From NCBI GenBank assembly GCA_019359355.1, contig JAHHHM010000017.1:1-64000 (forward strand): 64,000 bases of DNA, written 5' to 3'. The DNA comes from Microcoleus vaginatus WJT46-NPBG5. Its GTDB lineage: Bacteria; Cyanobacteriota; Cyanobacteriia; Cyanobacteriales; Oscillatoriaceae. The position numbers and the translations under genes are program-made. The notes below the pieces were generated by a model that saw only the letters and a program-made list of their open reading frames with translations, was not told the origin of the DNA and did no database searches. This document shows, one piece after another, positions 5,716-33,317 of this stretch (position 1 is its first letter; the number at the start of each line of letters is the position of its first letter).

Positions 5716-5901
5716 TCAAAAGGCCGGCTCTGGTAAAGCTTCGTTTTCTGGGATCGATTTTAAAATTGCCTCTGGAGTTATTTTAACTGGTAAAAGTTCG
5801 ACAACGGCGGGGATTGTTGCTTCTGGTTGTATAGCTTCTAGGCTAACGCAGCAAAATGAGGGATTTGGTATATTTTCTACCTTTAACATTTCTTTAATCA
5901 A
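5716..5901 (-). CDS. Possible small hypothetical protein upstream of the hybrid kinase
   Basis: A 61-residue open frame on the same strand as the hybrid kinase, ending 54 bases before its start codon. It is acidic and proline-rich, with no membrane segment and no motif I recognise. The longest version needs a TTG start; an internal ATG at codon 5 is an alternative, and neither has a convincing Shine-Dalgarno sequence. It borders the DnaA-box cluster. It may be a small leader protein co-transcribed with the kinase, or chance. Confidence 0.3.
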   Translation of the reverse strand: MIKEMLKVENIPNPSFCCVSLEAIQPEATIPAVVELLPVKITPEAILKSIPENEALPEPAF

Positions 5902-5932: not shown

Positions 5933-6171
5933 TGTGGAAAACTGATGCGAATCTGTGGAAAACTCTGTGGATAATCTGTGGAAAAGCGGCATGAGCCAGT
6001 GAAAAACGCAATTAGGTATAAATACGCTGTGGAAAAATTGGGGACTTTTCCCACAGGTTTTCCACAGGCTGAACCGGCATCAAAGATTTGCCGGTAAAGC
6101 GTTTCTTAAGTTTTTCCACAATTTCCACAGCCTCTACGACTACTATTAATAAATTTATTTCTAATTAGTCG
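5933..6171. other. Candidate chromosomal origin of replication (oriC)
   Basis: The sequence shows a dense cluster of DnaA-box 9-mers. TGTGGAAAA (reverse of TTTTCCACA) lies at 5933-5941, 5954-5962, 5977-5985 and 6028-6036, and TGTGGATAA (reverse of the canonical TTATCCACA) at 5966-5974. On the other strand TTTTCCACA lies at 6058-6066 and 6112-6120, with near matches TTTCCCACA (6047-6055) and ATTTCCACA (6121-6129). The boxes switch orientation near 6040. An AT-rich run at about 6141-6171 next to the last box could be the unwinding element. dnaN follows immediately, as reported near mapped origins in some cyanobacteria. No dnaA gene is present in the window. Confidence 0.8.
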
Positions 6172-6312
6172 TTTTCTTCGCACCGGCAGCCAACTAGATT
6201 GTTCACTCTAGAGAGTGCTACGATTTGCTTCCAGGCAAATTTTGCCAAAATATCGCTCAGGGGTATGGCGTGTTCCGTACTTCAATCACTCCAAAGTAGA
6301 CATTTAAACGCC

Positions 6313-7497
6313 ATGAAGCTGGTTTGTGCCCAAAGTGACCTTAGTACCAATTTATCGTTGGTCAGTCGTGCCGTTCCTTCTCGTCCGACGCATCCAGTGC
6401 TTGCCAACGTGCTCTTGAGTGCGGATATAGAAACGCAGCGGGTACAGCTGACAGCATTCGACCTCAGCCTCGGTTTACGCACCAGTTTTGCTGCCACTGT
6501 GGAAGAAGGCGGTGAAATGACGCTGCCGGCAAAACTGCTCAATGATATTGTGTCGCGTTTGCCCCAGGGAGAGATTACGCTAGAGGTTGAAGAAGCCGGC
6601 GCAGGAGAGGGTTCAGATGCCGGCATTACTGCCACCATTACTTCAACTTCAGGTCGCTACAAAGTGCGGGGGATGGGAGTAGAAGAATTTCCAGAGTTGC
6701 CGGTTGTAGAAAATGGTCAAGCAATTTACTTGCCTGGTGAGGCTTTAATTGAAGGACTGCGAGGTTCTTTGTTCGCCACCAGTGCGGATGAAACTAAGCA
6801 GGTACTCACCGGCGTCCACCTGAAAGTTGGCCAAGATGACTTAGAATTTGCTGCAACCGATGGCCACCGGCTGGCGGTTGTGCAAACACCCAAACAGGGT
6901 AAAGTCGATGATGAGTCAGATCAGCCAGAAACCGACAGCCGAGAATTTGAAATGACGGTTCCAGCAAGAGCATTGCGGGAATTGGAACGCATGGTGGGGA
7001 TGCGCCAAGGATCTGAACCGATTGCCCTGCATTTTGACCAAGGGCAAATTGTATTTGAGTTGGGAGATCAGCTGCTGACTAGCCGAAAATTGGAGGGGCA
7101 ATATCCGGCTTATCGGCAATTAATTCCCAAGAATTTTTCTAACCAAGTTAATGTTGATCGCCGGCAGTTTTTGAGTGCTTTAGAGCGAATTGCCGTGCTT
7201 GCTGACCAAAAGAATAATATTGTCAAATGTACGCTTGATAGCGAGAATCAGCAGATTTCTCTATCAGTTGAAGCGGCAGATGTGGGCAGTGGAAAAGAGT
7301 CAATGTCGGCGCAAATTTCGGGAGACGAACCCAAAGAAATTGCCTTCAACGTTAAATATCTGATGGATGGATTAAAAGTGCTGAATACCTCAGAAATTCA
7401 AATGCATCTAAATTTAGCCACAAATCCTGTGGTTTTGACGCCGTTGGGGGGGATGAAAATGATTTATTTAGTCATGCCGGTGCAGTTGAGAGCGTAA
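6313..7497 (+). CDS. dnaN: DNA polymerase III sliding clamp (beta subunit)
   Basis: 394 residues beginning MKLVCAQSDLSTNLSLVSRA, the expected N-terminus of the bacterial beta clamp, and ending with the conserved MPVQLRA tail that closes the third clamp domain. The clamp is a homodimeric ring that tethers DNA polymerase III to DNA. The open frame extends 38 codons further upstream without looking clamp-like, so the ATG at 6313 was chosen; it gives the usual family length. It sits directly downstream of the DnaA-box cluster and may be DnaA-regulated. A short acidic linker (about residues 198-215, rich in D, E, S) looks slightly expanded. Confidence 0.96.
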   Translation: MKLVCAQSDLSTNLSLVSRAVPSRPTHPVLANVLLSADIETQRVQLTAFDLSLGLRTSFAATVEEGGEMTLPAKLLNDIVSRLPQGEITLEVEEAGAGEGSDAGITATITSTSGRYKVRGMGVEEFPELPVVENGQAIYLPGEALIEGLRGSLFATSADETKQVLTGVHLKVGQDDLEFAATDGHRLAVVQTPKQGKVDDESDQPETDSREFEMTVPARALRELERMVGMRQGSEPIALHFDQGQIVFELGDQLLTSRKLEGQYPAYRQLIPKNFSNQVNVDRRQFLSALERIAVLADQKNNIVKCTLDSENQQISLSVEAADVGSGKESMSAQISGDEPKEIAFNVKYLMDGLKVLNTSEIQMHLNLATNPVVLTPLGGMKMIYLVMPVQLRA

Positions 7498-32348: not shown

Positions 32349-33092
32349 AAATTCCTCCTCTGGTTAACAGCACACCGCTAAGGCTTCCCGACCGGCTACG
32401 ATGCTAAGCCGGCTTAGCAGTGGGCTAAAATCAATTGCGTTCTGTAACAAAGGATACAGAAAATATTTGATACCTGGCAACCAATTGTCTTAGAACTTTA
32501 CAACCGCATCAGTGCTGCTCGTGTGGACATTGCCCGAACTTATTCTGCATCAGCATCGCTGCAATCATTGCCTGCACTGGGTTTGAGGCGATCATCCACA
32601 GGCCGGCGCTCACAAATCTTGCTCGAATCGATGCGAACAAAAAATCATACACAGCGAAAAGTTTTGCAATTCTTATTTTTCGCCAGAATTTTCCCCAAAG
32701 ATTCCACAAACATTCCACAGGTAAGCAGAGCGTTTTCCACAATTTAGACAGAGTTTTCCACAGGGGGGAACGGTATCATCAACGCTTGATGCTGGATTGG
32801 GGATTTCTCAGACTACACCCGGAACCTGTGGCAAAAGTCATTTTTATGTAAAGTTATGTAACAGAAATTGCCTTCAAACACTGATTCCTTCGTAAACCTT
32901 TTTTTTGCCTGAAGGCGGTTGTAACATTTCGCATCATTGACAACCCCACCCCTTGGTAGCGCAAAATGAACCGGCCTACCTAAAAATGCTCTCACCTGAA
33001 CGGGTACTGTTCGTCGCTTCTGCGTAGTGGAAGTGAAGGCAATTGCCAGCCCAGGGAAGGGAGAAAATAAGTAGCCGGCTTAAGGAGATTTT
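32349..33092. other. Long non-coding region with a second DnaA-box cluster
   Basis: 744 bases without a credible gene. It contains the perfect 18-bp palindrome TGCTAAGCCGGCTTAGCA (32402-32419), two exact TTTTCCACA boxes (32733-32741 and 32754-32762), a one-mismatch box TCATCCACA (32592-32600) and two partial TTCCACA words (32702-32708, 32713-32719), all in the same orientation. The 3-prime part leads to the DUF2811 gene. Confidence 0.6.
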
Positions 33093-33317
33093 ATGAACGC
33101 AAGCATCAGCATTCTGGCGGAAATTCCCGAAGAATTACACGAATCCCTCAAAAACTACTTGGACAGCCATCCAGACTGGGATCAAGACCGGGTTTTTTCT
33201 GCCGCTCTGTCACTGTTTTTGCTGCAAAATGGCAGTAGTGGCAGCCCAGAATCGTCACGAAGCTACCGTCAGGCTGCCCGCGTGTATCTGGAATCGCTGT
33301 TCAAACACCCGGTTTAA
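33093..33317 (+). CDS. DUF2811 small protein
   Basis: 74 residues matching the cyanobacterial DUF2811 family: ISILAEIPEELHESLKNYLD, HPDWDQDRVFSAALSLFLLQ and a C-terminal RQAARVYLESLF. The sequence resembles ribbon-helix-helix or CopG-like helical proteins, but function is unknown. A good ribosome site (AAGGAG, 5 bases before the ATG) supports the start. It is followed by an inverted repeat ATTTTAGAG/CTCTAAAAT (33338-33346, 33370-33378). Confidence 0.85.
   Translation: MNASISILAEIPEELHESLKNYLDSHPDWDQDRVFSAALSLFLLQNGSSGSPESSRSYRQAARVYLESLFKHPV

Follow-up and report, generated by a model that had tools for sequence, protein, structure and literature searches.

A conserved DnaA-box array upstream of a DUF2811 gene, and a putative dnaN-type oriC, in a 64-kb stretch of the Microcoleus vaginatus genome

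A phased array of DnaA boxes, located upstream of a short gene of the family DUF2811, was found in the 64-kb stretch of contig C4 of Microcoleus vaginatus analysed here (hereafter, the window). Since the array is conserved and DUF2811 is mostly absent where dnaA is absent, DUF2811 is a candidate part of the DnaA pathway, to which it probably belongs; the link is drawn from two separate signals, namely, a conserved array of binding sites and correlated gene loss. The surprise of the locus is this array, and not the putative oriC upstream of dnaN, which is ordinary. Note that the array, at 32.7 kb and 27 kb from oriC, was absent from the preliminary description of this DNA. The array and DUF2811 bear on the role of DnaA in those cyanobacteria which keep the protein though it is not needed for their replication, a question left by PMC7198777 as excerpted. 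The coordinates are listed in Table 1.

Table 1. Features assigned in the window (positions are those of the window; exact and one-mismatch refer to the DnaA box).
Feature	Position	Strand	Remarks
Left edge of homology to the dnaA-oriC-dnaN region of congeners	5882		blastn of the window against the loci of G001 and G002
DnaA box TTTTCCACA	5933-5941	-	exact
DnaA box TTTTCCACA	5954-5962	-	exact
DnaA box TTATCCACA	5966-5974	-	exact
DnaA box TTTTCCACA	5977-5985	-	exact
Core box 1, TTTTCCACA	6028-6036	-	exact; left partner of the central opposed boxes
Core box 2, TTTCCCACA	6047-6055	+	one mismatch; 19 bp from box 1, start to start
Core box 3, TTTTCCACA	6058-6066	+	11 bp from box 2
Core box 4, TTTTCCACA	6112-6120	+	54 bp from box 3
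Core box 5, ATTTCCACA	6121-6129	+	one mismatch; abuts box 4
Spacer, abutting boxes to trio-like run	6130-6139		10 bp; sequence
DnaA-trio-like run	6140-6151	-	CTACTATTAATA on plus, 3'-GAT GAT AAT TAT-5' on minus; four NAN units
AT-rich candidate unwinding element	6141-6170		87% AT; base composition
Possible weak opposed trio	6166-6171	+	TAGTCG; TAGTAGTAG in some relatives; sequence comparison
dnaN, DNA polymerase III beta clamp	6313-7497	+	three DNA_pol3_beta Pfam domains
Phased DnaA-box array upstream of DUF2811	32689-32762	+	five box-like sites
(G/T)TTACA-N4-(G/T)TTACA	32847-32862	-	between array and DUF2811; the only exact match among the seven listed in the window
Putative -35 element (TTGACA) ahead of DUF2811	32937-32942	+	kept in the six family members aligned
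DUF2811 gene	33093-33317	+	74 aa; Pfam PF10929, E 2.8e-29

The DnaA-box array and the DUF2811 gene

The five sites of the array were TTTTCCCCA at 32689, ATTCCACA-type sites at 32700 and 32711 (two mismatches as 9-mers), and exact TTTTCCACA at 32733 and 32754; they are phased by 11, 11, 22, and 21 bp in the window. The array lies about 340 bp upstream of the 74-codon gene. In 12 loci including that of the window, every one had at least one exact box before DUF2811, and 11 had two such boxes at a distance of 21 bp. The search was then extended to 110 of the 126 genomes with DUF2811 (30 loci and 80 fetched; the best match was taken if there were several copies; the 16 genomes left out were 14 of family f41, G133, and G172). 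A pair of boxes on the same strand, 20-23 bp apart and with at most one mismatch per box, was found within 720 bp upstream of 98 of the 110 DUF2811 genes; each of 20 shuffles gave 0-1 of 110, and the opposite strand 0 of 110. Upstream of the frames of at least 100 codons in contig C4 and in contig C1 of the congener G001, the pair was found in 2 of 458 cases, which may be the window's own clusters. The 12 genes without the pair were those of G019 (no dnaA and no box), G290 (no dnaA), G014, G105, G109, G122 (f8, dnaA present), and six genomes of f41 with dnaA.

The columns of the boxes in the array were invariant in 36 of 36 cases among three congeners, versus 401 of 434 other columns, which was not significant (p 0.16); among six family members, the numbers were 28 of 36 versus 181 of 434 (p 3.5e-5). 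DnaA very probably binds this array. A degenerate box in the opposed orientation lies about 44 bp downstream of the array (at most two mismatches at the exact offset in 10 of the 98 loci; mostly three), and the TTGACA element follows the last array box at a distance of about 175 bp. The (G/T)TTACA-N4-(G/T)TTACA site between the array and the gene is what we take to be the HLR1 motif of the regulator RpaB.

The score of the window protein against PF10929 was 101.6 bits (curated cut-off, 26.6). DUF2811 proteins (about 65-75 residues) were found in 126 of the 139 sampled genomes of the class to which the window belongs; in the draw of 292 genomes over the phylum, the 126 genomes with DUF2811 were each labelled as this class. 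A ribbon-helix-helix fold, which had been suspected from the look of the protein alone, gained no support: no such Pfam family was matched up to E 10, a profile search against solved structures gave two matches (E 0.32 and 1.3), and the structure model from the single sequence had a mean pLDDT of 63.8 and no strand. The word DUF2811 occurred in no paper of the open-licence library searched, and no title on such an array appeared among those listed for DnaA-trios or DnaA ChIP in cyanobacteria and for DnaA boxes at conserved hypothetical genes. The DnaA ChIP work in PMC6478999 and PMC7198777 was, in the excerpts of both papers, qPCR at oriC and a control gene.

Joint occurrence of dnaA and DUF2811

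In the phylum draw, the presence of dnaA was scored by the box-binding domain PF08299. Among the 139 genomes of the class in this draw, DUF2811 was found in all 122 genomes with PF08299 and was missing in 13 of the 17 without it. The same 13 of 17 were under the cut-off of the Pfam profile, several of them with weak matches (E 0.015 to 0.84), and DUF2811 was found despite the absence of PF08299 in G019, G207, G290, and G172 (the copy of G172 had two internal stops). A further draw was performed over the order (364 genomes, partly overlapping with the phylum draw), with the threshold for DUF2811 set to E 0.001 or lower (300 genomes, 294 of them over the curated cut-off). Both genes were found in 286 genomes, dnaA only in 17, DUF2811 only in 14, and neither in 47; for the 318 good genomes (completeness of 90% or more, contamination of 5% or less), these numbers were 260, 10, 9, and 39, respectively. 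In the good genomes, DUF2811 was missing in 39 of the 48 without dnaA versus 10 of the 270 with dnaA (Fisher p ~6e-32, not corrected for phylogeny).

The good genomes with dnaA and without DUF2811 were G025, G354, G372, G430, G447, G455, G500, G506, G515, and G560, of which two are of genus g152 and many are in hundreds of contigs; weak DUF2811 scores were also obtained alongside ordinary dnaA in other genomes of g195. Those with DUF2811 and without dnaA were G019, G028, G172, G207, G290, G365, G487, G517, and G537. As for G028, the complete oriC core is present (locus L107), so its dnaA may merely be missing from the assembly. In a draw of 40 genomes, dnaN was found in all eight that lack dnaA, and poor assembly is thus no easy explanation of the absences there.

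We consider it somewhat probable that DUF2811 has a part, so far unrecognised, in the DnaA pathway: DnaA bound to the array would control the gene, the protein would act on DnaA or on its use of oriC, and the loss of dnaA would lead to decay of the array, with the gene usually being discarded. The association of the two genes might instead come from shared ancestry or genome erosion, and not from function, and such an origin would accord with the clustering of the losses in few families, with a Fisher test that ignores phylogeny, and with exceptions in both directions; we regard it as unlikely, since genera g20, g39, and g56 contain genomes that lost both genes as well as genomes that kept both, several genomes without both genes are not small (4.3-6.8 Mb), dnaN is present in the eight dnaA-lacking genomes of the 40-genome draw, and the box array sits at DUF2811 itself. 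It is likewise doubtful, to a similar degree, that the array is a locus for titration or reactivation of DnaA with DUF2811 as a bystander. In E. coli, datA and DARS1/2 are multi-box DnaA loci away from oriC, of which the criterion is the promotion of the hydrolysis of DnaA-bound ATP or of nucleotide exchange. The 32.7-kb array is like them in being a multi-box DnaA locus away from oriC, and differs in being attached to a conserved gene. The phasing of the sites, the distance from the array to the possible promoter, and the degenerate opposed box downstream would suit a titration locus, whereas DUF2811 itself tends to vanish with dnaA, which a bystander need not do. That the array is a second origin is very improbable: its favourable point is the conservation of a phased multi-box array over the class, but in the sequences inspected by eye no trio run leading into an AT-rich stretch was seen beside it, the TTGACA element and DUF2811 come after it, and the array was sought, and found, at DUF2811 in the genomes searched.

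The box cluster upstream of dnaN

The segment 5933-6171 is assigned with good confidence to the chromosomal oriC, which would be of the ordinary, already known cyanobacterial dnaN type. According to excerpts of PMC4674748, cyanobacterial oriC has TTTTCCACA boxes, an adjoining dnaN, and an AT-rich stretch, and these are shared by the oriC of S. elongatus PCC 7942, Anabaena PCC 7120, and Cyanothece ATCC 51142. In the window, a box cluster beyond chance, dnaN adjoining it, an AT-rich stretch beside the boxes, and dnaA elsewhere in the genome were all found. TTWTCCACA had 10 exact matches in the window versus 1.76 expected, and 10 was reached in 0 of 100 shuffles. Seven of the 10 fall in 5933-6120 (188 bp; five on the minus strand and two on the plus strand), and the one-mismatch boxes at 6047 and 6121 on the plus strand bring the total to nine, versus three boxes in Cyanothece (excerpts of PMC4674748). 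No other 250-bp interval of the window was as dense as the cluster (9 boxes); the next separate one, at 32.6 kb, had 4. In the whole genome (6,457,322 bases, 44 contigs), TTWTCCACA occurred 185 times versus 85 for the pattern read backwards. The preliminary description had counted six TTTTCCACA and one TTATCCACA within 190 bases, with near matches, in two opposed groups meeting near 6040 and with dnaN directly after them; all of these were located, with the junction of the groups between 6036 and 6047. The frame of dnaN is open from TTG at 6199, the ATG is at 6313, and the stop codon ends at 7497. A conserved AGTATAAATAC-like element (GGTATAAATAC in the window, 6015-6025) was also observed just to the left of the central opposed box, in relatives as well. 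In the whole window, there was no Rfam match at the gathering score and no tRNA.

For comparison, 110 dnaN loci were used (80 from named genomes and 30 from the window's genome and its relatives; the locus of the window itself is among them, as are a few near-duplicates). Of the 108 loci in which the 700 bp preceding dnaN were complete, 42 had at least three exact boxes in that interval, versus 10 of 1,259 control windows of 700 bp from the same loci (none in 1,214), and some of these ten may be clusters of the same type lying further out. The core pattern was defined as a minus box, 17-24 bp, a plus box, 10-12 bp, a plus box, 52-56 bp, a plus box, and an abutting plus box, and was searched for anywhere in each fetched locus with one mismatch allowed per box. 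All five core boxes were present in 24 of the 110 loci, at least four in 33, and at least three in 49. The spacing was 18-19, 11, and 53-54 in 29 of the 33 loci with at least four core boxes (the exceptions were L018, L054, L091, and L107); this spacing with the abutting pair was not seen in the excerpts of the cited papers, and the conserved core spacing provides precise targets for studies of the origin in filamentous cyanobacteria. The remaining 61 loci, where the whole fetched stretch yielded fewer than three core boxes, were of several sorts: some had many boxes in another layout (e.g., L048 and L097), and others, many of them Nostoc, had no exact box. In several Nostoc loci, the cluster was 0.7-5 kb away from dnaN (e.g., L036, L005, L020, and L021); clusters about 4-5 kb from dnaN, and not adjoining it, were seen in L005, L017, L020, L021, L023, L024, L035, and L046. 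The box columns of oriC were invariant in 81 of 81 cases in three congeners (versus 189 of 239 other columns) and in 68 of 81 in six family members (versus 45 of 239). A search for the abutting pair over the phylum gave matches in 92 of 292 genomes; since many genomes share variants such as TTTTCCACAATTCCCACA, which may lie in coding sequence, no count of origins was taken from this search.

An AT-rich stretch adjoining the last box had also been described, and the composition of 6141-6170 bears this out. The basal unwinding system consists of a DnaA-box, a spacer of up to 16 bp, and at least three NAN trios, and DnaA of S. elongatus separated strands in vitro in an assay that needed boxes and trios (excerpts of PMC8287927). 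The segment of the window fits this box-spacer-trio arrangement, at least as read from its sequence: the order and lengths agree when counted from the one-mismatch box 6121-6129 (10-bp spacer and four NAN units); if the exact box 6112-6120 is used for the count, the distance to the run is 19 bp, which exceeds the limit of 16. The basal unwinding system of B. subtilis oriC likewise has abutting boxes, a 10-bp spacer, four NAN trinucleotides, and AT-rich DNA. Compared with it, the run of the window is short, with an interrupting CGA before it, and some relatives have an opposed TAGTA-type element beyond the AT stretch. Cleaner or longer runs are present in some relatives (CTACTACTACTA; e.g., GCCCCTACTACTACTATTA in L094 and L107). 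The clear left trio motif was found in 12 of 38 distinct origins with the abutting pair, and TAGTA or TAGTCG was found at 22-62 nt on the far side in 6 of these 12 versus 1 of the 26 others (mean of shuffles, 1.0; 0 of 1,000 reached 6); since this motif was chosen after the sequences had been viewed and many of the rows are related, it is taken only as a lead. An inverted TAGTAGTAG-like element faces the trio run across the AT-rich stretch in L094, L012, L004, L006, and L111.

The boxes, with their spacing, conservation, and constraint, the AT-rich stretch, and the gene context are observed features, and the steps of initiation are modelled on B. subtilis and on the in-vitro work with S. elongatus DnaA. 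DnaA would bind the two opposed groups of boxes, and the core (6028 minus; 6047 and 6058 plus; the abutting 6112/6121) would position a DnaA oligomer, which would start at the abutting boxes, extend along the trio-like single strand 6140-6151, and melt the AT-rich stretch 6141-6170, where the helicase would be loaded, beside dnaN.

GC skew, gene order and further clusters

A GC-skew check had been proposed for the origin, and it gave no support. The skew was +0.006 in the right 157 kb of contig C4 and +0.007 in the left 391 kb of C1 of G001, with no switch in either. For G006, of the same family, 40 evenly spaced 20-kb samples were taken from a 6.93-Mb contig; the best two-arm split was no better than that of permuted order (0.26), and 15 of the 40 tested positions split the samples as well as the dnaN position or better. 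Since irregular skew is frequent in cyanobacteria (PMC7198777, in excerpt), the missing switch is read as neutral and not as refuting. In the same excerpts, Nostoc sp. PCC 7120 and Synechocystis have several origins, dispensable dnaA, and irregular skew. With dnaA dispensable there, a box cluster is no proof of DnaA-dependent initiation, and with irregular skew accompanying DnaA-independent replication, the claim of a main origin stays inferential.

These two species are the precedent for a different view, in which the boxes would be a DnaA-binding relic, or else serve dnaN as an operator, and chromosome replication would start at several origins and independently of DnaA. The position of the boxes before dnaN and the missing skew switch, irregular skew being tied to DnaA-independent replication in those species (excerpts of PMC7198777), would agree with it; because constraint is seen on the boxes and on their spacing, dnaA has an intact frame, and a trio-like run with an AT-rich stretch is unexpected for a simple operator, we consider it quite unlikely. 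The assignment to oriC, already made in the preliminary description, is supported by the box density, the near-fixed spacing in relatives, the constrained columns, the box-spacer-trio-AT order, and dnaN.

The origin had further been described as having no neighbouring dnaA. This is true of the contig, but it is not the state of the genus: in both congeners, G001 and G002, the gene order is dnaA-oriC-dnaN with dnaA directly upstream of oriC, and the separation is thus peculiar to this strain. The genome has one copy of dnaA, with an intact open frame of 457 codons, on contig C26. This contig aligns with the left part of the dnaN loci of G001 and G002, and its alignment ceases close to the stop codon of dnaA; that of the window starts at 5882 and extends to the right. 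Some 240 bp past dnaA, C26 terminates (L113:5615-5858) in DNA matching four plasmid records, and one of the four matches lies under an annotated IS982-family transposase; C4 starts 5.9 kb to the left of oriC, with a large protein-kinase, AAA, GAF, histidine-kinase gene in that segment. Since the orientations of the contigs allow C26 and C4 to be joined, the simplest reading is that 6 kb or more were inserted between dnaA and oriC. On this simplest reading, dnaA and oriC would have been separated in this strain by an insertion or rearrangement, with the junction outside the assembly.

Pairs of TTTTCCACA on the same strand with at most 30 bases between them were found at three loci of the genome: the oriC cluster, the 32.7-kb locus of the window, and 118.8 kb of contig C40. 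A second origin at either of the latter two was not adopted, as dnaN adjoins neither. The cluster on C40 (118764-118833; locus L112) consists of three minus TTTTCCACA 20-22 bp apart and a one-mismatch plus box, and is flanked by two long frames on opposite strands, the 3' ends of which face it.
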